Positions 26,936 through 47,522 of a DNA stretch of 64,000 nt are shown one piece after another (the stretch's first letter is position 1; every line of letters starts with the position of its first letter). Source of the DNA: Geobacteraceae bacterium (GTDB lineage: Bacteria; Desulfobacterota; Desulfuromonadia; Geobacterales; DSM-12255). Below the pieces are notes generated by a model. That model had not been told where the DNA came from and did no database searches. It saw only the letters and a list, made by a program, of their open reading frames with translations. Position numbers and translations under genes: made by a program. Location: positions 1 to 64,000 of the forward strand of contig JACABD010000017.1 in the NCBI GenBank assembly GCA_013377075.1, written 5' to 3'.

Positions 26936-27226
26936 TCAGCAGCAACCGGTTCTGCTTTTTTTCCCGATATTGAAAGATGCCAGCCACTCATTTATCATTC
27001 CGGAAGCGCAGCCGACACCGGCATCAACCGTTATTGCCTTTGCAGGACAGTTGAGTGCACAGGCTCCGCACTCCATGCAGAGGTCTGTATCCAGAATTTC
27101 AGCCTTGCCACCTGCTACATAGAACAGGTTGTGAGGACAGACCTCCGTGCATATCCGGCATCCGGTGCAGATTCCCCTGTCTAAAGCCAGCGTAGAGACC
27201 CCTTTAAGGTAACTGAAACCTTTCAC
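26936..27226 (-). CDS. hgcB: HgcB, ferredoxin-like corrinoid-protein reductase partner required for mercury methylation (GTG start)
   Basis: VKGFSYLKGVSTLALDRGICTGCRICTEVCPHNLF...CMECGACALNCPAKAITVDAGVGCASGM...GKKSRTGCC*; two 4Fe-4S motifs, C-terminal Cys pair; GTGA overlap with hgcA. Confidence 0.93.
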   Translation of the reverse strand: MKGFSYLKGVSTLALDRGICTGCRICTEVCPHNLFYVAGGKAEILDTDLCMECGACALNCPAKAITVDAGVGCASGMINEWLASFNIGKKSRTGCC

Positions 27227-28233
27227 AAAAATCTCCAGATCAATATGGTGATAAAACCTGTGACAAGACAGAGCGCCTGTGCAGGCAGAGCCCATCTCAT
27301 CTCCTTTTTTACCCCCGAACGTGATGTATACGGAGTAGAACCGGTAAAGTTCAACATGAGAAAGGAGCTGAAAGCAGCTATCATCAGGGTTGTAGCAGCA
27401 AACAGTGGCGGAGATACAACTCCGGCAAGATATGAAAAAAAAGACCCGATGACAAGACCTGTAACCCCTCCCTTGATGGAAAAGGCTGGCGAAGGTAGCC
27501 AGGGGAGAAGCAGAGGCGATATGAATGCCCCGGAAATTACTGCTGCAAAGTAGGCCAGGAGTGCAAGAACAGCATGATGCAGACTGAATGAACCGTTGAA
27601 AAAGCCTGCTGCAAGGAAGAGGAGAGGAAGAAATGGTCCGGCCTTGCGCAGTGCGGTCTGGAGCTCTATGGGGGTCAGAATAACTCTTTCATATGCAGTG
27701 AAAGTAAGCTCACGTACGTTGCCGGATGCCTTGCCTCTGTCCAGAAACTCTGGCAGATCCTCTATACGGATGGTAGAGAACCTCACCTTGAAGCCGCAAC
27801 GCCTAAGAATCTCAATGCCCTTCACCCCTGCGGCTCCAAAAAGCGGCAGAATCAGCTCCCGATGGGTTACTATCTCAGACAGCCTTACCGCCCCTACCCT
27901 GCGAACCAGTTCACCGGTGCCGAATGTCCCCTTCCCAGCCGCGCACCAGACATTGATGCCGTATGTTTCCAGCACCAGCAGCCAGAGATCTCTACCGGCA
28001 AGAGCTTTTCTCACCAGATCATAAGTCATCTTGTAATTAGCTGTGACGACAACATGACTGTTTTCATCAGGTGAGCCGAGCGCATAGAGACCTGGCGGAA
28101 CGATATAGCTCATCCGGCCAAAATCCCAGCGAGCCTTCCAGCTACCGACCGTATCCTGACAGCTGATTTGAGAGGAGATAACCGGAATTTTCAGATCGGT
28201 TTTCGATGGATACCAGGAGATGAACCCCGCCAC
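27223..28233 (-). CDS. hgcA: HgcA, corrinoid-dependent mercury methyltransferase
   Basis: Cap-helix motif NVWCAAGK (27931-27954), N-terminal corrinoid-binding domain, C-terminal multi-TM region, 336 aa, followed by hgcB. Confidence 0.95.
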   Translation of the reverse strand: MAGFISWYPSKTDLKIPVISSQISCQDTVGSWKARWDFGRMSYIVPPGLYALGSPDENSHVVVTANYKMTYDLVRKALAGRDLWLLVLETYGINVWCAAGKGTFGTGELVRRVGAVRLSEIVTHRELILPLFGAAGVKGIEILRRCGFKVRFSTIRIEDLPEFLDRGKASGNVRELTFTAYERVILTPIELQTALRKAGPFLPLLFLAAGFFNGSFSLHHAVLALLAYFAAVISGAFISPLLLPWLPSPAFSIKGGVTGLVIGSFFSYLAGVVSPPLFAATTLMIAAFSSFLMLNFTGSTPYTSRSGVKKEMRWALPAQALCLVTGFITILIWRFL

Positions 28234-28316
28234 TTTTTCACTGATCTCACCGCTGACCGCGGCGTCTTTCGGGCCTCAGCAGGGTGGCTTGTCAAGCGCA
28301 GCAGGTTCGCACGAGT

Positions 28317-28793
28317 CTATTTGAGCGAGCATTCACTCTCCCATTCATAGTAACCGTCACCTTTGATATCCCAGAAGGATTCAATCCTGGAGATGTAATA
28401 ATTGATGTCAAGGCAATCATTTTTTATCCTGCCATAGAATTCTTCATCAATGGCCTCTATCTGAAGAAGGTATTGATAAAACTCGTTAACCCCCTTCAGA
28501 TGGGCTTCAATCTCATCAATCACCGGCTCCATGGTATTAACGATATACCAGTTGCCGGCAAACTTCCTGACTTCCTCAGGATCGCAATCAAGAAAGTTCA
28601 GCTGCCTTGCACCTATCAAATAATCGCGAAGGTAGAAATCAGCACTGTTTGCCAGGAGCGTAGCGTCATGTTCAGTCAAACCCGATGCTATACGTTCATG
28701 GTAGAATGTCATTAACAACTCTCGGCAGAGGCCGTCTACCCTTAACTCATCTTCCAGGGTTCCGATATTGAAATCACTTATTGTCAGTTTCAT
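28317..28793 (-). CDS. Hypothetical acidic protein upstream of hgcA
   Basis: 158 aa intact ORF, short gap to upstream gene, no recognised domain. Confidence 0.6.
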   Translation of the reverse strand: MKLTISDFNIGTLEDELRVDGLCRELLMTFYHERIASGLTEHDATLLANSADFYLRDYLIGARQLNFLDCDPEEVRKFAGNWYIVNTMEPVIDEIEAHLKGVNEFYQYLLQIEAIDEEFYGRIKNDCLDINYYISRIESFWDIKGDGYYEWESECSLK

Positions 28794-31619: not shown

Positions 31620-32087
31620 ATGAAAATACTGGTCGTTTCTGATACTCATGGTAACTACCTTGCTCCGGTGAAAATTCTGGAGGAGACAGGTGCCGAAATG
31701 CTGATTCATCTTGGCGATGAAATTAATGATGCATTGACACTTGAGCTTATAGTTGATGTCCCTGTGATCAAGATTCCGGGCAATTGCGATCACGGGGTGC
31801 GGGACGCACGTGAAAGACTTGAATCCATATCCGGCAAACTGTTTTTCATTACCCACGGAGATCTGTACGGCGTAAAGAGTGGTCTGGAAAAGCTGATAAA
31901 TAGAACCAGAGAACATAATGCCTCTGTTGTACTTTTCGGACACACCCACATACCGCTAATACAGAATCAGGAGGGGGTACTGCTGGTAAATCCGGGGACA
32001 CTTATGGCCAAAAGTGATTTAAAAAGCTATGCGCTCCTTACAATTACCCCTTCCAAGATAAGCGCAGAGATAATCTACCTTCCCTAG
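31620..32087 (+). CDS. YfcE/MJ0936-type metallophosphodiesterase
   Basis: MKILVVSDTHGN, LIHLGDEIND, IPGNCD, FGHTHIPL, VNPGTL. Confidence 0.9.
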   Translation: MKILVVSDTHGNYLAPVKILEETGAEMLIHLGDEINDALTLELIVDVPVIKIPGNCDHGVRDARERLESISGKLFFITHGDLYGVKSGLEKLINRTREHNASVVLFGHTHIPLIQNQEGVLLVNPGTLMAKSDLKSYALLTITPSKISAEIIYLP

Positions 32088-32476
32088 CACCCGCATCCAC
32101 AATTGTGGCAGACTTTTCTGTTACTGTCGTCAGGCTCAACTGTTTCAGGGGCAAAAGCCACCCTGTTCACAGCACGTTTTATATCTTCAAACAGCTTCAG
32201 ATTCTGACTCTGGCCTATTATATGCCCGACACACTTGTTTATGAAACCATCAGAGGGTGAAGTGACCCTGACGGCATTCAGCAGGTCTGCGTAGCTATTC
32301 ACATTAACAGTCACAACGTCATTGCGGATACAATCCAGCTCTACACCGAAAGCTGCCAGCTCTTCGCTCAACCCTTCCGTAAAAGCATTGAATTCATCAC
32401 CTTCAAGGTTGACCTTCCAGTTATCCCTGATGTGATTCTGGCTGCATATTGATATGGTAATTTTTTTCATACTCAT
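32084..32476 (-). CDS. Small protein of unknown function with Cys-rich CHNCGCGC C-terminus
   Basis: 130 aa intact ORF ending in CHNCGCGC*, convergent 4-nt overlap with the YfcE-like gene. Confidence 0.6.
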   Translation of the reverse strand: MSMKKITISICSQNHIRDNWKVNLEGDEFNAFTEGLSEELAAFGVELDCIRNDVVTVNVNSYADLLNAVRVTSPSDGFINKCVGHIIGQSQNLKLFEDIKRAVNRVAFAPETVEPDDSNRKVCHNCGCGC

Positions 32477-37250: not shown

Positions 37251-38672
37251 TCAGGAGGTAAACTCCCTGCGTATCCGAAGAAACGCGGGCAGATGCCTGA
37301 TCACCCTCTTCACACTATCAGTAGACTTGAACATGAGCCCAGGAAATTTTCTGATCCAGTTTTTTCCGGTATAAAAATTACGGATAAACTCCCGGTAGAG
37401 CTCATCCATCCGCTCTTTCGAAGGCATTCCATGGGGAACAAAAACAAAGTTCATACAATTCATCAGCTCCCATTTCTCATCGAAAGCTCCTTCGTCATGA
37501 ATCGTCTTGTACAGAGGTGAACCTGGGAAGGGAGTAAACTTGGTCAGGTTCATATCATCAAGCTCAAGTGCATGTATGAAGTCTGCAGTCATGCGGAAAG
37601 TCTGCTCGGTCTCCCCTGGCAGCCCCATCATGAACAGACCTTTGGCACGAAGCCCTGCTCTGCGAATCCTCTTGACGGTCTTCTTCATCTCATCGAAATC
37701 TACATTTGATTTATGCCTTGCCAGTATCTCGGGAGAACCGGACTCGACCCCAAGACTGACCATCCAGCAGCCGGATGCCTTCAGCATCTTCAAAAGATCA
37801 TCGTCAATATGGCCAACCCTGACCGCACAGTTAAAGGTCATTCCAAGGGGTTTTTCGCGCAATAACCGGCAGAACTCCTCAATACGTGCCCGATTGAAGG
37901 TAAAGAGATCATCATAGAAAAAAACATGATTGATGCCGAATTCGGATTTCAGAAAGACCATCTGCTCATACAAATACCGTGGAGAGTTGTACCTGAAACT
38001 GCTGCCAAAGACCGAACGGTCACAGTATGAGCAGGTGTAAGGGCAGCCACGGCTGGAAATCACCGTTGCAACCGGCCCCTTGGGGTAGTTGAAAAGTGCC
38101 CCTTCGTAATTGACCGGAAAGCCGTCAAGTCCGTGATAATCTGGAAAAGGGAGAGAGTCCAGATCGCAGAGGAGCCCCCTGGCACCGTTATCCTTTATGG
38201 CATCTCCATCCCGATAGATGAGCCCTTTTATGGAGGCACAAGGGGCGCCCGAGGTTATCTCAGCCATGGCTTCCTCCCCTTCTCCGGCCACTATCATGTC
38301 AATGGATCTGAACTTCTCCAGAATCACTCCCCGCAGGGCAGAAACATGAACCCCGCCGAAAACAGTCCCGGTATCAGGGAAACTGCTTTTGACCAATTCA
38401 GCCAGCTGGATGCCATTGAGGAAATTGGAAGTTACCGCAGTGAAACCCACAATATCGGGCCTGAAGGAGTGAAGCAGATCTATAAAGCGTTTTTTTGAAA
38501 ACTCTGATGATAAGGAGGACAGGTCAATGATCCTGACGTCATGACCTGATCTTTTCAGAAATGCCGAAATGGAAAGAAGCCCGACAGGTGCCGACCTGAC
38601 AGCAACTGAAGAGTTGTCAGCAGAGCCTTGAGTCCAGTTGGAACTATGGGGATTAACGAGGAATATCTTCAT
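37251..38672 (-). CDS. Cobalamin-binding-type radical SAM protein
   Basis: N-terminal B12-binding-like Rossmann domain; SSRGCPYTCSYCDRSVFG CxxxCxxC. Confidence 0.9.
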   Translation of the reverse strand: MKIFLVNPHSSNWTQGSADNSSVAVRSAPVGLLSISAFLKRSGHDVRIIDLSSLSSEFSKKRFIDLLHSFRPDIVGFTAVTSNFLNGIQLAELVKSSFPDTGTVFGGVHVSALRGVILEKFRSIDMIVAGEGEEAMAEITSGAPCASIKGLIYRDGDAIKDNGARGLLCDLDSLPFPDYHGLDGFPVNYEGALFNYPKGPVATVISSRGCPYTCSYCDRSVFGSSFRYNSPRYLYEQMVFLKSEFGINHVFFYDDLFTFNRARIEEFCRLLREKPLGMTFNCAVRVGHIDDDLLKMLKASGCWMVSLGVESGSPEILARHKSNVDFDEMKKTVKRIRRAGLRAKGLFMMGLPGETEQTFRMTADFIHALELDDMNLTKFTPFPGSPLYKTIHDEGAFDEKWELMNCMNFVFVPHGMPSKERMDELYREFIRNFYTGKNWIRKFPGLMFKSTDSVKRVIRHLPAFLRIRREFTS

Positions 38673-40100
38673 CTATCGCTTCAACTTACCGCTTGCAGTA
38701 CGCTGCATTGACTGAACTATTTCGAAATCCTTCGGCACCTTGTATGAGGTCAGCTTTGAGTAGCAGAAGCGCTTCAGCTCCCGCAGCAGGCTGTCGCTCT
38801 GCATACTTTCATCAAGCACAATTTTGGCAATCGGTAGCTCGCCGTACCGATCATGGGGCTGCGCATAGACCAGCGACTCAACAACCCCCGGAAAGCTATT
38901 GATCACCGCTTCAACCTCGGTAGCAAAGATCTTCATACCGACAAAATTTATGACATCCTTCTTCCTGCCAAGGATAAAGAGATAGCCATCCTCATCTACC
39001 CGGCCAAGGTCACCAGTATTAAACCAGCCATCCTCAAAGATAAGCTCCTTCGGTTTCCAGGGTGAGTAATAGGCATTCAGGGTCCCCTTCCCTCTTATCA
39101 GTATTTCGCCGATGCCGCTTTCATCGGGATCGCGCAGCTTTATGAGGTAATCCGGCAGTATTCTGCCAACGGAACCGCTCTTTCCGCAAACACCGGCAGG
39201 CTTTATGAACGGCAATCCCACCTCGATGATGCCGTATGCCTCGCAGAGTTCGAAACCGAACTTGACGGAAAAGGCTTCTGCTATCTGGGGAGGGAGTTTC
39301 ATGGCTGTTGAAATAGCCATTCTGACGCTTTTCAGGGAATCCGGTGTGACCTCGTCAGATGCGGCTAGAAGTGAGTAGTGAAAGGGGGAGGCATAGATAA
39401 AGGTGCCATTTTGCCTGATAACAGCGTCGATAAGCCCATTGGGAAGATTATTCCCGCAGAGAACGATTGTAGCTCCTCTGCGCAGAAATAGAAGAATCGT
39501 CACCACAAAGTGGTAGCTCATGGAAAGGACCCAGAGCACCGTATCATCGGGAGTAATCTGTAATCCCTTGTCTGCAGCGTCGGTACGGTCGATTATCGTT
39601 TCGTGGGAAAGAAGGACCCCCTTGCTGACACCGGTAGTCCCTGAGCTGAAGCGGATAAAGGCGGGATTAAGGTCGAAATACTGACTGTCAGGCGGAGATG
39701 ATGCTCTCTGTAACAGCCTGAACTCTCTCTGCCTGAATGCTTCACAGATGAGGGGGTTACTGCCATCAAAACCGCTGATCCTTGAATCAGAAATGAGGAA
39801 ATCAAGATCGATTCTCTCGATCACCTGATTAATCTCGTCCTTTGCCAGATCAGGTGAAATGGGGACGACAACGGCTGAAATCGAGAGTATGGCCAGTGTC
39901 AGGGTGACATAATCAATGCTGTCATCACAGAGAACACCGATGCGGTGGAAGCGGGACACCCCTGCTGAAGAAAGCGATATTGCTACCTGTAAAGCCCCGT
40001 CAATAAGGTCTTCATAGGTAACAGCCTCATCGCCGTCAATCAGCGCTATTTTCTTCCTGAAGGGAGCCGATTCGATCTTGATCCGGTCAAAAATGTTCAT
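38673..40100 (-). CDS. AMP-forming acyl-CoA/acyl-ACP ligase (ANL superfamily); start placed at MNIFDRIK
   Basis: IRFSSGTTGVSKGVLLSHE, WFNTGDLGRVDEDGYLFILGRKKDVINFVGMKIFATEVE, RTASGKLKR; ATGA overlap with upstream gene. Confidence 0.92.
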   Translation of the reverse strand: MNIFDRIKIESAPFRKKIALIDGDEAVTYEDLIDGALQVAISLSSAGVSRFHRIGVLCDDSIDYVTLTLAILSISAVVVPISPDLAKDEINQVIERIDLDFLISDSRISGFDGSNPLICEAFRQREFRLLQRASSPPDSQYFDLNPAFIRFSSGTTGVSKGVLLSHETIIDRTDAADKGLQITPDDTVLWVLSMSYHFVVTILLFLRRGATIVLCGNNLPNGLIDAVIRQNGTFIYASPFHYSLLAASDEVTPDSLKSVRMAISTAMKLPPQIAEAFSVKFGFELCEAYGIIEVGLPFIKPAGVCGKSGSVGRILPDYLIKLRDPDESGIGEILIRGKGTLNAYYSPWKPKELIFEDGWFNTGDLGRVDEDGYLFILGRKKDVINFVGMKIFATEVEAVINSFPGVVESLVYAQPHDRYGELPIAKIVLDESMQSDSLLRELKRFCYSKLTSYKVPKDFEIVQSMQRTASGKLKR

Positions 40101-41554
40101 CTCAGTTCCGGCGGATAGTCCTTGTAGATGTTGCGCATGGAAATAATGTATTTGGTGCCGTTGACAATACTGCGGATAATCTCGCGAAACGGCACCTTTA
40201 CTTTGTTGCGCCTTAAGGGGTTGTGCTGCCAGCCGATGCGGTAGAGCTTTGCAAAGTGGGCGTAAAAGAGGGTCAAAGGCAGTTTTGTCGGCAGGATGGT
40301 ATGCATGCAATCGTAATAAAGGTACGGATCAACAATGTAGTCATCCTTGTGCTTCTTCGCCAGATCAGTGCCTGGAGAAGGGGAGAAGACGGTAAATGAT
40401 ACCTCAGCGGGGATGAGATCGATGATCACTTTTTCAAGATTGCGGAAATCCTGTACGGAGAAACCGGGATCTACCATAAGCGAAGCATGGAGAAGAATTC
40501 CTGTATCGCGCAGGATCTTGATGGCCTGCCAGTTCATATCAACAGTTGTCCGCTTGCCGTAATCCTTGAGACGTGACTCGTCCATGGCTTCCAGTCCCAC
40601 ATAGACAATATGCAGCCCGACCTCTTTCCAGAGGCGGAAAAGCTCCGGGTGGCTGACGATGGTGTCAACCCGTGCCCAACTGACATACTTCTTCTTAATG
40701 CCCCGCTCCTTGAGGAGTTCAGCAATCCGTGTCAAACGATTATGGTTGAGAAAAGTCTCATCATCGACAAAGTAGATGTATTCTTCCTGAATACCGGCAA
40801 TTTCGTCAACAACATCCTCAGGCGTCCGTTGCAGATACTTGCCGTTCATCATGTGATGAACAACGCAGAAATTACAGTCAAAGGCACAGCCCGTAGATGT
40901 CCGTATGGTGGCGATATTCGGGTACATGGTCTCAAGGCGGTTGTTTTTATCAGGTGATGTCCAGACTGAAAAATACTTTGAGCGGTCCAACAGGTTACGC
41001 CGTGGCCGAGGGATCTCTTCAACAGGCGGAAATGGTGGTGGTTTCAGAGCAGTTAATTCGGCAAAAGCAGGATCAGTAACGGCAATGACAGCATTTCCTG
41101 AAGCAAGTGACTCCCCTCCCCTGTAGCGGGCAACAATGCCGGTGAAAGCGGTGCCACCCTCGCCTCTGACAATAAGATCGAGTGATGTACCGGTAAAATC
41201 GTTGGGAATAATGGTCGGATGAATGCCGCCGGCAATTGTTATAACCCCCGGTAGAATGCTTTTGGCGCGGGTCGACAGGTCTTTCACAATAGCAGCCTGG
41301 TTACTGTAACAGGTAAAGCCGATGATATCCGGATTGAACTCCCGGACTTTCTGTTCAAAAAAGAGAACCGGATCCTTTTCAAGGGCAATATCAAGAATTA
41401 CGATATTCTCCCCATCCGGAATCCCTCCGGCAACTATCTCAAGCTCAAGGGGCTCAAGATGGAGAAAACTCTGTAGATTCCTGGCAACCCGAAGATGGGA
41501 ATGGGGCCTTACCAGCAGGATATTCAGTGGTCGGTCAATATTTTGAGACATCAA
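40097..41554 (-). CDS. Cobalamin-binding-type radical SAM protein
   Basis: N-terminal B12-binding-like domain; TSTGCAFDCNFCVVHH CxxxCxxC. Confidence 0.9.
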   Translation of the reverse strand: MMSQNIDRPLNILLVRPHSHLRVARNLQSFLHLEPLELEIVAGGIPDGENIVILDIALEKDPVLFFEQKVREFNPDIIGFTCYSNQAAIVKDLSTRAKSILPGVITIAGGIHPTIIPNDFTGTSLDLIVRGEGGTAFTGIVARYRGGESLASGNAVIAVTDPAFAELTALKPPPFPPVEEIPRPRRNLLDRSKYFSVWTSPDKNNRLETMYPNIATIRTSTGCAFDCNFCVVHHMMNGKYLQRTPEDVVDEIAGIQEEYIYFVDDETFLNHNRLTRIAELLKERGIKKKYVSWARVDTIVSHPELFRLWKEVGLHIVYVGLEAMDESRLKDYGKRTTVDMNWQAIKILRDTGILLHASLMVDPGFSVQDFRNLEKVIIDLIPAEVSFTVFSPSPGTDLAKKHKDDYIVDPYLYYDCMHTILPTKLPLTLFYAHFAKLYRIGWQHNPLRRNKVKVPFREIIRSIVNGTKYIISMRNIYKDYPPELR

Positions 41555-41562
41555 AAACTCCT

Positions 41563-42729
41563 TTAAATAATCATCTTCACAGCTTCAAGCCCTGCCTGCT
41601 CACCAAGAGCAGCGCAGATCCCAATTACCCTTGTGGAAGCCAGCGCCTCGTGGGTCACTGAAATACATCGGCCAGCCAGAAGCATATTTTTAAATCCATC
41701 TGCCTTGAGGCATGCAGCAGGTATCTCGTAATAATCACCATCGGGGGGATAGCGGTATGACACGCCTCTACCCGGAGTCCAGATCTCCATGGGCCACGCC
41801 CCCTTGACAGCAGCATCTGGAAACTTGCGGCCAAAGAGGACATCCTCTGCAGACAGCCTGTAGCCGCCTTTTATCCGGCGACCCTCGCGAGAGAATAACC
41901 TTTTTGAAGTTGTGGCGATAGAGGCATTTTCAAGTTCTGTAAGCTGACCTGCCAGAAAACAGAGCAGTTTCTCAGCCTGTAGAGGCAGATCAACAGCATA
42001 ACTGTCAGCACAATCAGGCAGACTGATCTTTAGAAACCCTTCGGTCGCCCCGGTTCCTGGGTAATAAACGGTATAACGGAAAAACTCTGCAATACTGGCC
42101 GACTCAATCCCCTTGGCTATGACAAATGGTATTTTCAAAGAAAGCGAATCAGCTCCGGCAGCTATTCCGCAGAGAGCAGCGGTAAAACCGGCCATCTGCA
42201 GCTCGCCTGCAGGTGAAAGCTCGTAACCTGCCCCTGCCAGAAAAGAGAGGGAACCATCTCCAGTGGCATCGATCAGCACCTTTGGTGAGCAGTTGCAGGT
42301 TCCAATATCAGCCGCAAGCTCCAGAACGCCGATAACACCGTCATTAACAGTGACAGAGGTTATGGAGCCATTCAACATGACCTGCAGGTTGGATTCACTG
42401 CTGCACAATATTTCCAGAACCGACAACAACTGTTTCGGTGAGTATGGCAGTGTAAAGACCTTGCCGATCTTTTTAACAGAGGACGTCTCAAGAAGGGCCA
42501 AAGCTATCTCTTCGACTATACCTACGTTAAGAAGTTCACCCGGACTATCTCCACCATTTTTAAAGAGCCCGCACAAAGCTCCGACAGCACCACCGGTTGC
42601 CGTGCCGCCAATCATGCCACTCTTCTCCACCAGCAGAACACTGCATCCACGTCTGGCGGCAGCAACAGCAGCGGCTATGCCTGCCACACCGGCTCCTGCA
42701 ACGATGATGTCAGGCCGGACTTTAAGCAC
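41563..42729 (-). CDS. FAD-dependent oxidoreductase (FAD_oxidored-type)
   Basis: IIVAGAGVAGIAAAVAAARRGCSVLLVEKSGMIGGTATGGAVGALCGLF. Confidence 0.88.
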   Translation of the reverse strand: MLKVRPDIIVAGAGVAGIAAAVAAARRGCSVLLVEKSGMIGGTATGGAVGALCGLFKNGGDSPGELLNVGIVEEIALALLETSSVKKIGKVFTLPYSPKQLLSVLEILCSSESNLQVMLNGSITSVTVNDGVIGVLELAADIGTCNCSPKVLIDATGDGSLSFLAGAGYELSPAGELQMAGFTAALCGIAAGADSLSLKIPFVIAKGIESASIAEFFRYTVYYPGTGATEGFLKISLPDCADSYAVDLPLQAEKLLCFLAGQLTELENASIATTSKRLFSREGRRIKGGYRLSAEDVLFGRKFPDAAVKGAWPMEIWTPGRGVSYRYPPDGDYYEIPAACLKADGFKNMLLAGRCISVTHEALASTRVIGICAALGEQAGLEAVKMII

Positions 42730-42731
42730 TG

Positions 42732-44051
42732 TCAGAGATTTCCACGAAGTTCAGTCTCTAACAGCCTAACCTCTTCAGGGGTGAAGGTTCCGTCGAGCCA
42801 GGAGATAGTGGCGTTCAGCCGATTATCAAAGGTATTGAAAAAGATGCCGATGCCCGGTGGAACCGGCATGCGCGGCATATGAAAAACATTTGTGATCCTG
42901 GAGTCCATCAGCATATGGGAGCTGTATGAGCACTTGCTGACATGGGAAAAACAGAAAGAGGCAATCTTCCCCTGCAATGGCAGGTGGAATATCCTGTTCA
43001 TCAGCCAGAGGGGCGCAATCCGTGTCAAGGATGATGCTTTCATCAGGTTCTGCGGAAAGCGGGACTGCACCTGCTCATAGAGCTGGTTCTTGATCTGGCC
43101 GGTCAACTCTTCCATATTGTCGACAATTTCCGGTTTTATCTGAAAAAAGAACATGGAGTTATGGTTAAAGAAAAGGGCCTGACGGATATCCTTTACCTGC
43201 CTCAAGTCTGTCGAAGCGGGCACTGTGTAGGCACCAGCTGTAATTCCACGAGCCTGAAACACCTTGTGCAGGGCGCGAAACACATTGGCAAACAGGTAGG
43301 GCATTATCATCAGGTAACCGGCGACAGAGTAGGCTCTATCGTAGATGGCCGCTGTCTCGGCACTGTCAAAGGCAAGAACCAGATGCCTGAACCCCCGCTC
43401 CTCTTTTGCAAGGGAGACCGGTAGCGACAGAATCGACTCTTTCGAAAGGGCCTTGATTTTCCTGCTTACTGACTGACCTGCCTTAAACTTGTCTGTCCAC
43501 TGATTCAGATCAATCCCCTGGCTAAGGCGGACTCCATCGGCAATCGACCCGTCTTCGCCAGAGACAAGATACTCCTGGAAAAGGTTTACAAAGGATTCGG
43601 CACCACGGGCATCGAAAAGTCGATGATCAAAAGTCATGGCAACGGCCTGAATATCCTTGCCGCCAAGCAGATGAAAGGCAAGATGAATATTCTTTGCAGC
43701 AAAAGGGGTATTGATAAAACGCCCCAGAGCCGACATCAGCGACTCTTCATCATCAACCTTTGTGACCGTAATCGGCACATCCAGAGGATCATGATCAGCT
43801 TCCACCTTCCAGTAAGGGGCGAGAGACGGGTATTGACGGACAACCGAGCCGCTTATGACCGGAAAAAGAGCAAGAAAACGCCGCAGCGAGCCCTTAAAAG
43901 CGGCTTCATCCAGAGGAGCGTCGAGAACGAAAACAACCTGGGAGGCATTGCCGGCACCGGTTGTTCTCCTCATGATGGTATCAATTACACCCATAACCCA
44001 GTCGAAACCGTTCAGGTAATATTTATTTTTAATGGAGAGGTAGGAGCGCAT
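42732..44051 (-). CDS. Condensation/acyltransferase-like protein (BAHD/WES/PapA-like fold)
   Basis: MTFDHRLFDARGAESFVNLFQEYL (HxxxD-type motif) in a ~440 aa two-domain protein. Confidence 0.7.
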   Translation of the reverse strand: MRSYLSIKNKYYLNGFDWVMGVIDTIMRRTTGAGNASQVVFVLDAPLDEAAFKGSLRRFLALFPVISGSVVRQYPSLAPYWKVEADHDPLDVPITVTKVDDEESLMSALGRFINTPFAAKNIHLAFHLLGGKDIQAVAMTFDHRLFDARGAESFVNLFQEYLVSGEDGSIADGVRLSQGIDLNQWTDKFKAGQSVSRKIKALSKESILSLPVSLAKEERGFRHLVLAFDSAETAAIYDRAYSVAGYLMIMPYLFANVFRALHKVFQARGITAGAYTVPASTDLRQVKDIRQALFFNHNSMFFFQIKPEIVDNMEELTGQIKNQLYEQVQSRFPQNLMKASSLTRIAPLWLMNRIFHLPLQGKIASFCFSHVSKCSYSSHMLMDSRITNVFHMPRMPVPPGIGIFFNTFDNRLNATISWLDGTFTPEEVRLLETELRGNL

Positions 44052-44062
44052 CTATCTTGGGA

Positions 44063-44305
44063 CTAGAGCTTTGTGCTGATATATGTCGAAAGTGCCCTGA
44101 CAGACTCAAAATCCTTCCTGTCAAGCTGGGAGGCAATAAGCTGAAGTTTCAGGTTCTTTTCGATATAAACAAGGATCTCTACAAAGCCGAGGGAGTCAAT
44201 ACCAAGTTCATGAAAAGGCTTTTCAGGAGCGATGGTAGCTGCATCATCACCGGTGATATTGGATATAACCTGCATAAGTTCTGTTTCGATCTGCGCTTGC
44301 GTCAT
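44063..44305 (-). CDS. Acyl carrier protein
   Basis: FHELGIDSLGFVEILVYIEKN phosphopantetheine Ser motif. Confidence 0.9.
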   Translation of the reverse strand: MTQAQIETELMQVISNITGDDAATIAPEKPFHELGIDSLGFVEILVYIEKNLKLQLIASQLDRKDFESVRALSTYISTKL

Positions 44306-44321
44306 ATTGCATAAACTCCTG

Positions 44322-45350
44322 TCATTTTTTTGATAAGATCACAGCGGCAACATCACCATTACAGCCGCAGGAAAGAGTTCGCACCGTTTCAACAGGCGAT
44401 CTTGCAGTCTGCGTAACGATGTTAAGATTATGGGGATTTGTCTGCTCCGGAGCAGCGTATATTTTCTGATTTCTCAAGGTTATGGCTGCTGCTGCGACCG
44501 AAAAAGCGGCTCCTGTCATGAGCCCGCCGTACAGAGGCGTATAGGATGTGACCGGCTCACCGGATTGCAGCACTTGCAGAAGTTTGGACTCATCCTTGAT
44601 GAAACCGGCTGAATCGAGAATTGTCAGATCAGCAGGAGATGCTGCAGACGATGAAAAATCCGTTGTAACGGCATCAATAGCACAATAACCGGGCTGTCCC
44701 CTCCCCAGAAGCAGGAAGAGCGCCCCCTCGCCAGGGAGCGTCTCAGATGGCGAGAAGATAAACGGTTTGATGACACCATCTTTGGCGAGAGGAAGTTTCT
44801 GCTTCGCCAGATAATCGAGCACATCACCATGCTGGTCAATTGAGCCGAGAAGCAGATAATCGCAGCGCCCCTGTTCAAGCCAGGCTGAAGCGAGTTGGAG
44901 AGCCGATTGAAACGGGAATGAAAACCGGGAAACCGTCAGGGTCGGCCCTTTGATGCCAAGGGACGAGGCGACATAGGAGGCTGCAGCATTATGGACCGAG
45001 TTGGAAAAGGCGGTAGGTGAAACATTCGCCTCACCATAGTCGATGATGCCGTCAAGAAAATCAAAGGTGGTGACATGGGCTCCGAAAGCTGTTGAGAGGA
45101 GTATTCCGACTCTTATTTCAGACAGATCCTCAACGTTACTATCCTGAAGAGCTGCAGCAGCAGCAAGAACAGACATCTTGCTGAATCGGTCCGCACGACG
45201 TAGTTTCTTCAAGAGAGTCCTGTCAGAAATCCCGTCAAGATCAACAAGGAATGAGTCACATTGTGGCGCGAGCCCATCATTCAAGGCCTTTTCCAGGGAT
45301 TCTACGCCATATCCGCGACTGCAAAGTGAACCGATGCCAAGAATATTCAT
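44322..45350 (-). CDS. Catalytically degenerate ketosynthase-like protein (possible chain-length-factor analogue)
   Basis: Thiolase-fold KS homology, but active-site Cys motif replaced by RFSFPF and His motifs lost. Confidence 0.8.
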   Translation of the reverse strand: MNILGIGSLCSRGYGVESLEKALNDGLAPQCDSFLVDLDGISDRTLLKKLRRADRFSKMSVLAAAAALQDSNVEDLSEIRVGILLSTAFGAHVTTFDFLDGIIDYGEANVSPTAFSNSVHNAAASYVASSLGIKGPTLTVSRFSFPFQSALQLASAWLEQGRCDYLLLGSIDQHGDVLDYLAKQKLPLAKDGVIKPFIFSPSETLPGEGALFLLLGRGQPGYCAIDAVTTDFSSSAASPADLTILDSAGFIKDESKLLQVLQSGEPVTSYTPLYGGLMTGAAFSVAAAAITLRNQKIYAAPEQTNPHNLNIVTQTARSPVETVRTLSCGCNGDVAAVILSKK

Positions 45351-46525
45351 CGTCCCTCCACTCCGATCAGAACAGCTGCGTTATTGCCGCCGAACGCCAG
45401 GGAGGTTGAAAGAGCATAAGTACCTGTAATTGACGTACGCTCCATTAGTGGAGTAACAGCAATTGCCTCATCCTGGATAGAGAAACCGGCGCTGGCCGGG
45501 AGCCACCCCTCTTTCAGGGCAGCAGCGGCAAATACAGCCTCTAGTCCACCGGCAGCACCAAGGGTATGACCTGTATAACCCTTTGTCGAAAGAACCTTCA
45601 GATCAGCTCCAAAAATTCTGGCAAGGGTATTACCTTCAACGAGGTCATTATCATGGGTTCCTGTGCCGTGGGCATTTACAAAAGCAATATCTTCAGGACC
45701 GACTCCCCCCTCCTGCAGTGCCACTCTGACAGCCTTCTCAAGGGATGCGCCATCAGGATCGGGGGCAGTCAGATGATAAGCATCGGCAAACAGGCCGTAA
45801 CCGGCAAGAAAAAGAGACGGGGTAAGGCTGCGCTGCAAGGCTGATTGCCGCTTTTCAACGATCATCACCCCGGCACCCTCACCCAGATTAAGTCCCTTTC
45901 TGTCACGATCAAATGGGGAACAGAGATCCGGATTGAGTATGCCGAGCGATGAAAAGCCCGAGTACGGAATAAGGCTCAGTTCATCTGCTCCGCCTGCAAT
46001 AACCAGATCGCACAAATCGGCTTTCAACCAGGAAAGGGCAATACCAATTGCATCAGTACCTGAAGAACAGGCATTTACAACCGAGAGAACAGGGCCCTTC
46101 AAATTGTATTTACGGGAAAGGTATTCAGCTGGGTTACCGGCAAGAAAGCTGTCTACCGGTTCAAGTGGGGGAGCACCTGTTTCACGGTAGGAGCGGTAAA
46201 AGTCAAGATCATTCAACTGACAGGCTACGGTTGTGCCGATACAGACACCAACTCTCAACCCATCAAAAGAGCTTAGGGCAGCGTCATTCATCGCTTGATG
46301 CACTGCGCTCAAAAGAAGAGCAACGGTTCTACTCTCTCTGCTTAATTCGCTTCTACATTCGAAAACAGGATAGGAGAGTGTGGATGAAAAAAGCGTTAGG
46401 GATGAGTGATTACGCTCCCCGGCAGACATGCTTTTAAGCGAAGAGGCAAGATCTGCACCTGCTGCAGAGACAACTCCCAAACCTGTTATTGGATATTCAC
46501 CTTTTATCATGGCTTTTGCCTGCAA
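45347..46525 (-). CDS. Beta-ketoacyl-ACP synthase, FabF type (likely start at internal MIKGEYPITG)
   Basis: VVNACSSGTDAIG (Cys), VNAHGTGTHDND (His), TKGYTGHTLGAAGG (His). Confidence 0.93.
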   Translation of the reverse strand: MQAKAMIKGEYPITGLGVVSAAGADLASSLKSMSAGERNHSSLTLFSSTLSYPVFECRSELSRESRTVALLLSAVHQAMNDAALSSFDGLRVGVCIGTTVACQLNDLDFYRSYRETGAPPLEPVDSFLAGNPAEYLSRKYNLKGPVLSVVNACSSGTDAIGIALSWLKADLCDLVIAGGADELSLIPYSGFSSLGILNPDLCSPFDRDRKGLNLGEGAGVMIVEKRQSALQRSLTPSLFLAGYGLFADAYHLTAPDPDGASLEKAVRVALQEGGVGPEDIAFVNAHGTGTHDNDLVEGNTLARIFGADLKVLSTKGYTGHTLGAAGGLEAVFAAAALKEGWLPASAGFSIQDEAIAVTPLMERTSITGTYALSTSLAFGGNNAAVLIGVEGR

Positions 46526-47522
46526 ATTTCGGCACTCCGAGAATATCTAAACCCTGATCTATGGTAACAATCGGCATCTGTGGATATCGATCCTTGATAT
46601 ACCCAAGCAGACCAGTTAACTGCTCACGTTGGTTGTATATTATTTTGTCAATTCTGGCAACAGCACCGCTTTTCTCACCACGAACAGTATCGCCCACCCG
46701 GGGGGTGCCGGAGAAAGGGACAAGGTAGATTGCATATTCATAGACCGGGAACCAGTGGGTTGTTACATACCTGGCAACAGTACCTGAAGGTGAGAGGCGA
46801 AGAGTTTCTCCCGGCTCAAAAAAGCCTTCATAATCTGTCACTTTGACCTTGGCATTAATCTCATGCTGATAAAAAACCAGCCATTTCCGCTCTTCCCAGG
46901 CCCTGTCAATATGAGCCTTCATTGCATCAGAATCATGTTTCATCGAAAAGGATCTGATCATATACAGGTCGAGATATGAGGAGTTTAATGAATTGGTACC
47001 ACCCCTGGCAGAGCGGTAGTATTGGGCTGCTACGGTTCGTACTGCCTCATCATTCTTGTTATATGGATAGACAAGATTGGTAACCCGTGCACCGATGCGT
47101 TCAAGTTCACTATTTGACTTTTGAAACTCTCTAGCCAACTCTTCTTTTGAGAGTGATTTCAGGTTGGGATGGGATGCAGTGTGTGCCATGATTTCCCAGC
47201 CCGAGCCTTGCAGGGCAAGGATCTGCTCCTGTGTAAGGTGGTCAGTGGTTCCGATAAAATCGGTAGTAATCGCAGTTGAGGCAACAGCGCCCTGCTCCGC
47301 AAAAACATCTTTGCCAACAAGAAAATCGGTGTCATTACCGTCATCAAAAACAAAAGAGACCATCGCAGCTGACTTATAATTCTGGCTGGCAACAATCAGA
47401 TCCCTGTTCGCACAGGAGATTAAAAAAAGCGATGCCGCCAATAACAGTGCAAGGCGGCATATAAAACAAAAATATATTTTTTCAGGAAATTTACTTCCTG
47501 TTGTCATAAACGAAGTTTGCAA
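46497..47522 (-). CDS. Lipoprotein-type polysaccharide deacetylase-family protein
   Basis: Lipobox SLFLISCANRD; MVSFVFDDGNDTDFL; IMAHTASHPNLKSLS. Confidence 0.85.
   Translation of the reverse strand: MQTSFMTTGSKFPEKIYFCFICRLALLLAASLFLISCANRDLIVASQNYKSAAMVSFVFDDGNDTDFLVGKDVFAEQGAVASTAITTDFIGTTDHLTQEQILALQGSGWEIMAHTASHPNLKSLSKEELAREFQKSNSELERIGARVTNLVYPYNKNDEAVRTVAAQYYRSARGGTNSLNSSYLDLYMIRSFSMKHDSDAMKAHIDRAWEERKWLVFYQHEINAKVKVTDYEGFFEPGETLRLSPSGTVARYVTTHWFPVYEYAIYLVPFSGTPRVGDTVRGEKSGAVARIDKIIYNQREQLTGLLGYIKDRYPQMPIVTIDQGLDILGVPKFAGKSHDKR

Follow-up and report, generated by a model that had tools for sequence, protein, structure and literature searches.

HgcA and HgcB are the source of biological methylmercury, and the question raised by this locus is whether a complete pair of these genes is present and where the first of them begins. 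The window, meaning the whole stretch of 64,000 nucleotides analysed (positions 1 to 64,000 of contig JACABD010000017.1), belongs to a genome of 3.7 Mb in 126 contigs, 95% complete, which contains one HgcA. In the original prediction the organism had been described as a genetic candidate for mercury methylation, a reading that was fair as regards the gene pair and its motifs and incomplete in that the N-terminus of HgcA was wrong and a selenocysteine codon was overlooked. Judging from the evidence set out below, we give a probability of about 87% to the view that a Geobacter-like anaerobe has its complete hgcAB operon here, with HgcA as a selenoprotein (Table 1).

Table 1. Features of the hgcAB locus in window coordinates.
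Feature	Coordinates	Strand	Remarks
hgcB, 96 aa	26936..27226	(-)	GTG start; two 4Fe-4S motifs; Cys73; terminal Cys95-Cys96; ordinary TGA end
hgcA, corrected	27223..28332	(-)	ATG start; 369 codons and a stop; one in-frame TGA (predicted Sec19)
Membrane domain, five predicted helices	27229..27696	(-)	AlphaFold helices 213-368
Corrinoid-binding domain (CdhD/CFeSP-like)	27832..28101	(-)	PF03599, 33 bits; Foldseek to CFeSP 2ycl, 2h9a
Cap-helix motif NVWCAAGK	27931..27954	(-)	Cys130 in corrected numbering, at 27943-27945
GTG formerly taken as start, internal Val34	28231..28233	(-)	codon not ATG, GTG or TTG in 73 of 94 relatives
N-terminal tail, codons 1-33, predicted flexible	28234..28332	(-)	pLDDT 45-62 for residues 1-30
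SECIS-like hairpin	28248..28264	(-)	6 bp stem; 5-nt loop GGUCA; loop starts 17 nt after TGA
TGA, predicted selenocysteine 19	28276..28278	(-)	after Cys18 (TGC, 28279-28281); motif PPC-U-GP
158-aa gene directly upstream of hgcA	28317..28793	(-)	overlaps the hgcA start by 16 nt
GGGAG, likely hgcA ribosome-binding site	28338..28342	(-)	from sequence; five bases ahead of ATG 28332

The identity of both genes is established by the family models. HgcA scores 405 bits (404.6) with the NCBIfam model NF040863, whose cut-off is 275, over residues 49-368 of the corrected protein, and HgcB scores 117 bits with NF040864, whose cut-off is 99. Since the E-values are 2e-121 and 2e-34 and both curated cut-offs are passed, the match is not a matter of chance, and the hgcA-hgcB pair named in the original prediction is borne out by the very profile search put forward there as a check. 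Phylogenetic placement, another check named there, locates the protein inside the HgcA family and not among the CFeSP/CdhD proteins. In the 336-aa open reading frame first described on the minus strand (27223-28233) the cap helix had been noticed together with the position of its Cys, and it is present as given; it conforms to N(V/I)WCA(A/G)GK, Cys130 is invariant across 48 aligned HgcA, and NVWCAAGK itself occurs in 83 of 85 aligned sequences. The multi-transmembrane C-terminus, likewise noted beforehand, is predicted as a membrane domain of five helices. The AlphaFold model (pLDDT 85.6) combines an N-terminal corrinoid domain of the CFeSP type with five long C-terminal helices, and the top Foldseek match of this fold is the HgcAB model 9a0b (E 3e-18, 42% identity), CFeSP structures coming second. 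Corrinoid domain, NVWCAAGK cap helix and five-helix membrane domain are those of the HgcA of mercury methylators (PMC7305189 model).

What the CFeSP large subunit (PDB 2h9a, 2ycl, 4c1n) shares with the protein is the corrinoid-domain fold (Foldseek E about 1e-4 to 4e-5, rmsd 2.2 Å), with 21-23% identity over ~130 residues, whereas CFeSP has neither the membrane domain nor the cap-helix Cys of HgcA (PMC7305189). A CFeSP/CdhD identity was rejected on the score with PRK04165 (52 bits versus 306) and on the presence of the cap Cys and the membrane domain; the score with the acetyl-CoA decarbonylase/synthase gamma model lies far under its cut-off. The HgcAB-like fusion protein (NF043039) has domains in common with the pair and was discarded because the score of 167 bits is under its cut-off, 285, and because the window genes are two separate ones.

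HgcB carries Cys at positions 20, 23, 26, 30, 50, 53, 56, 60, 73 (in VGCASG), 95 and 96. HgcB is characterized by a gene adjoining hgcA and, in the protein, by two CxxCxxCxxxCP motifs, Cys73 and one or more Cys at the C-terminus. All of these are found, among them the two motifs, VGCASG Cys and terminal Cys-Cys of the HgcB-type ferredoxin proposed at the outset. In HgcB of strain ND132, Cys 20, 23, 26 and 60 belong to cluster A and Cys 50, 53, 56 and 30 to cluster B, in addition to Cys73 and Cys94/95 (PMC7305189); the cysteines of the window protein occupy the corresponding places, and its terminal pair keeps the ND132 spacing. The genes are adjacent and overlap by stop and start, the GTG of hgcB (27226-27224) sharing four bases with the hgcA stop (GTGA); an upstream ATG at 27295 is not the start. 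Whether hgcB too ends in a recoded TGA (TGC TGC TGA) was tested, and the idea was rejected, since in the same genomes the genuine stops vary (TGA in 58, TAG in 22, TAA in 9) and nothing is conserved past them. Sec at HgcB position 73, for which the literature gives a GVGU motif, was rejected as well, the residue being Cys in every HgcB read, that of the window included.

The start of hgcA is where the original prediction failed. It was placed at GTG 28233, and the frame runs upstream from there through an in-frame TGA to ATG 28332, 99 bases away, which adds 33 codons; the corrected N-terminus, from the window translation, would read MLAQIDSCEPAALDKPPC-U-GPKDAAVSGEISEKVAGF... The TGA stands 15 codons upstream of the formerly supposed start. 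In most relatives the codon of Val34 is GTT, GTC or GTA, a possible start being found in just 21 of 94, and 12 of the 84 genes with TGA are without any ATG, GTG or TTG from the TGA to residue 32. The open frame of nearly all relatives counts ~349 codons and extends ~14 codons 5' of where the alignment begins, and no further, because of the conserved in-frame TGA; translated through it, they read ...DKPPC-*-GPPTSAGGGEITDKVPGF... This conserved length first suggested a riboswitch or leader, a candidate that was dropped: an Rfam search gave no match here, and the recoded TGA accounts for the sequence. Within the order the tail keeps the motif [D/A]xPPC-U-GP...G, and its residues of note in the window protein are Cys8, Cys18 and the predicted Sec19.

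Among 141 sampled genomes of the order the HgcA model matches in 98, of which 94 reach the cut-off, and it finds no HgcA in 43. In a set of 94 genomes of the order codon 19 is TGA in 84, TGC in nine and TGT in one, never TAA, TAG or another residue; the codon preceding it specifies Cys in all 94, and the peptide 3' of the TGA is conserved (GP....A..G.I.E.VPGF). An in-frame TGA aligned to the Cys of homologues, and never replaced by TAA or TAG, is the pattern by which bacterial selenoproteins are recognized. In a wider set of 48 HgcA, mostly from outside the order and taking in Desulfacinum isolates, Syntrophales-like and other deltaproteobacterial MAGs, Sec or Cys occupies the Sec19 column in 45. 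Some wider HgcA relatives have the TGA after Gly or Thr, not Cys (GU, TU), namely L052, L053 and L054 of Desulfacinum, and L034, L040 and L044.

The hairpin spans 14-30 nt past the TGA and its loop bears a G, being CGGCG in most relatives. Over 83 distinct TGA genes 97.8% of the pair cells are standard, versus 53% over the 10 Cys genes, and the stem has a covariation score of 0.189. The highest score is 0.067 in 300 shuffles, which leave sequence relatedness in, and 0.045 when the hairpin is slid. Bacterial SECIS elements are generally recognized as a hairpin just 3' of the UGA with a G-bearing apical loop, the rule used here to judge the geometry, and the window element has this form; it has no match in Rfam. 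As to the machinery, the host genome encodes SelB (347), SelA (583), SelD (358) and a tRNA-Sec with anticodon UCA (79.9 bits), all four in one genome; the SelD gene has its own in-frame TGA, as is already known for this protein. Since (i) the codon is occupied by TGA or Cys only, (ii) a SECIS-like hairpin follows it, and (iii) SelA, SelB, SelD and tRNA-Sec are at hand, the window HgcA is predicted to be a selenoprotein, its in-frame TGA very probably encoding selenocysteine. By the same comparison, predicted Sec in HgcA is the rule in the order Geobacterales.

Two genomes, both 99% complete, keep hgcA with TGA and hairpin (G038, loci L068/L103; G107, locus L150), and SelA, SelB and tRNA-Sec were not found in them, the machinery being apparently missing. 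Missing contigs or recent loss would explain this absence. Where visible, the SelA, SelB and tRNA-Sec genes can be close neighbours (G112, contig 16), so one lost contig may be the explanation; if the losses were natural, HgcA of these two genomes would have to start downstream.

The Cys forms of the order, ten in number, are spread over about three positions in the tree. All ten, which are not independent of each other, have an additional Cys-Cys pair at a more upstream point of the tail, as against 1 of 83 Sec forms. The pattern suggests that where Sec was given up thiols were added, and a soft-metal ligand or a redox role would fit this better than a purely structural one. Three genomes with Cys forms are without Sec machinery (G104, G116, G123) while the seven others keep it; loss of the machinery is weakly associated with the Cys forms (3/8 versus 7/79, p about 0.05).

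In a tree of 112 HgcA the window protein forms a cluster (SH-aLRT 97) with those of two genomes from the same genus, beside a small group of other Geobacterales. Among named relatives, Geobacter and other deltaproteobacterial MAGs come nearest to it. It differs from known HgcA in its 33-residue N-terminal tail with the predicted Cys-Sec pair and in being the most diverged HgcA of its clade: the end branch, 0.71, is the longest there (median over the tree, 0.19), the identity to the nearest kin in the genus is 58%, and 9 of 98 well-conserved columns deviate, none of them inside the cap helix. The gene order DppBC - orf158 - hgcA - hgcB - oligoendopeptidase is identical in G001; G002 preserves it over the part that its matches cover, from DppBC to hgcB, and it has a looser form in G014 and G017. 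The 158-aa gene, without a family match in Pfam and NCBIfam, is syntenic with dipeptide-transporter-like genes and hgcA in G001 and G002 and lies near hgcA in G014 and G017. In another genome of the genus, G003, hgcAB lies at a locus unrelated to this one (L100) and belongs to a different HgcA clade, suggesting that the pair has been transferred or replaced within the genus. Elsewhere in the window, a minus-strand cluster (37251-47522) resembles a pathway to a natural product of the fatty-acid type, its genes encoding two B12-binding radical SAM proteins, an AMP-ligase, an FAD oxidoreductase, two ketoacyl synthases and a polysaccharide deacetylase, and at 32084-32476, also on the minus strand, a 130-aa protein without family match ends in CHNCGCGC, a possible metal-binding tail.

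We propose the following model for the locus, its cobalamin chemistry being taken from published work on other species. Ribosomes would start at ATG 28332, and at the UGA of codon 19 SelB carrying Sec-tRNA, guided by the downstream hairpin, would introduce selenocysteine beside Cys18; translation would then proceed to the 369-aa HgcA. In ND132 HgcA, cobalamin is bound with Cys93, the equivalent of Cys130 here, as lower ligand, and HgcB gives the electrons (PMC7305189, PMC11588087); in the purified ND132 complex SAM is the methyl donor (PMC11588087). Likewise, the corrinoid of the window protein would be held under the cap helix with Cys130 as lower cobalt ligand, HgcA would take a methyl group (from SAM in the one purified system) and hand it to Hg(II), and low-potential electrons from HgcB would bring the cobalt back to Co(I). 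HgcB needs Cys73 and one of its two terminal Cys (PMC7305189), and the flexible Cys18-Sec19 tail would, like that terminal pair, serve as a movable high-affinity ligand bringing Hg(II) in or taking methylmercury out. From its gene content, the strain of the window probably methylates mercury. The role of the tail as a metal-handling arm, argued by analogy, is put forward more tentatively, as possible and short of probable. In ND132, a methylator, the cap Cys is residue 93 (PMC7305189), which leaves little or no room for a comparable tail, so the tail would not be essential for methylation in general.

Two alternatives concern the gene itself. The TGA could be an ordinary stop, with HgcA starting at GTG 28233 (336 aa) and an 18-codon leader peptide plus the hairpin controlling its expression. 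A GTG does exist there, ND132 HgcA seems to be tail-less (PMC7305189), and in the short form the NF040863 match starts at residue 16, so that the whole domain is present even without the tail. Against this, the ten relatives with TGC or TGT at codon 19 read straight through, TAA and TAG are absent among the 84 genes, the formerly supposed start codon can equally be GTT, GTC or GTA, the peptide 3' of the TGA is conserved, and both SECIS geometry and Sec machinery are present; termination at the TGA is very improbable. It is also highly improbable that hgcA is decaying in this genome, its long branch reflecting relaxed selection and the organism no longer methylating mercury. The end branch, several times the median of the tree, and an HMM score that is the lowest among the four members of the genus would agree with decay, but the gene has no frameshift and no stop besides the conserved TGA, the cap helix is intact, no class-wide invariant residue or HgcB cysteine has been lost, and the synteny with G001 and G002 is retained.

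The other alternatives accept an intact selenoprotein operon and differ on what it does. Mercury may be a side substrate, in which case HgcAB would natively carry out a different methyl transfer, with some other metal or metalloid as a conceivable acceptor, and the Cys-Sec tail would be made for that substrate. HgcAB is not known to have an established native function, other methylators lack the tail or have it replaced, and the lack of HgcA in 43 of 141 genomes of the order indicates that the gene pair is dispensable. However, mercury is the subject of all the functional studies cited, the affinity of Cys and Sec pairs for Hg(II) is very high, and no neighbouring gene names another substrate; we regard this reading as unlikely, though with an appreciable chance. 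A serious rival to the metal-arm reading of the tail, in itself rather improbable, is that Cys18-Sec19 is a redox pair, forming a selenenylsulfide like that of thioredoxin reductase; the pair would then serve to reduce or protect the cobalt centre or HgcB and would bind no mercury. Neighbouring Cys and Sec are the redox motif of known reductases, and the Cys forms, having Cys-Cys at this place, could retain redox chemistry. On the other hand, HgcB already supplies two 4Fe-4S clusters, and the motif of some wider relatives is TU or GU, not CU, so that a Cys-Sec pair cannot form in them.

Selenocysteine in HgcA has been listed before: a 2026 review includes HgcA (NF040863, motif CU) and HgcB (motif GVGU) among selenoproteins, with one example accession for HgcA (PMC13188914), and HgcA as a selenoprotein is mentioned in one sentence elsewhere (PMC11588087). 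The kind of protein is hence already known. Compared with the one-accession listing, the present analysis gives the residue state over 94 genomes of one order, the SECIS covariation, the Sec/Cys exchange and the machinery of the same genome. A text search of the open-access literature combining mercury methylation, hgcAB and selenocysteine found no paper. The cited source of selenoprotein HgcA with the CU motif is reportedly Haft & Gwadz 2023 (J Bacteriol), family and motif being the same as in the window HgcA; of the additions made here, which are the corrected gene, the order-wide residue state, the SECIS covariation and the Cys-pair pattern, part may stand in that work.

A wider reading, which we offer as a conjecture with less than even odds, is that in Geobacterales and many other deltaproteobacterial lineages HgcA would ordinarily be a selenoprotein whose Cys-Sec tail acts as a mercury or organometal arm, so that some environmental methylmercury would be Se-dependent and models or constructs starting at the Val would represent a truncated enzyme. 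On this reading, HgcA start sites, expression constructs and structural models in the order should be checked for a missing N-terminus. If the reading were true for most Geobacter-like bacteria, selenium and mercury chemistry would meet within the enzyme, and the known Se/Hg antagonism would gain a directly testable molecular site.
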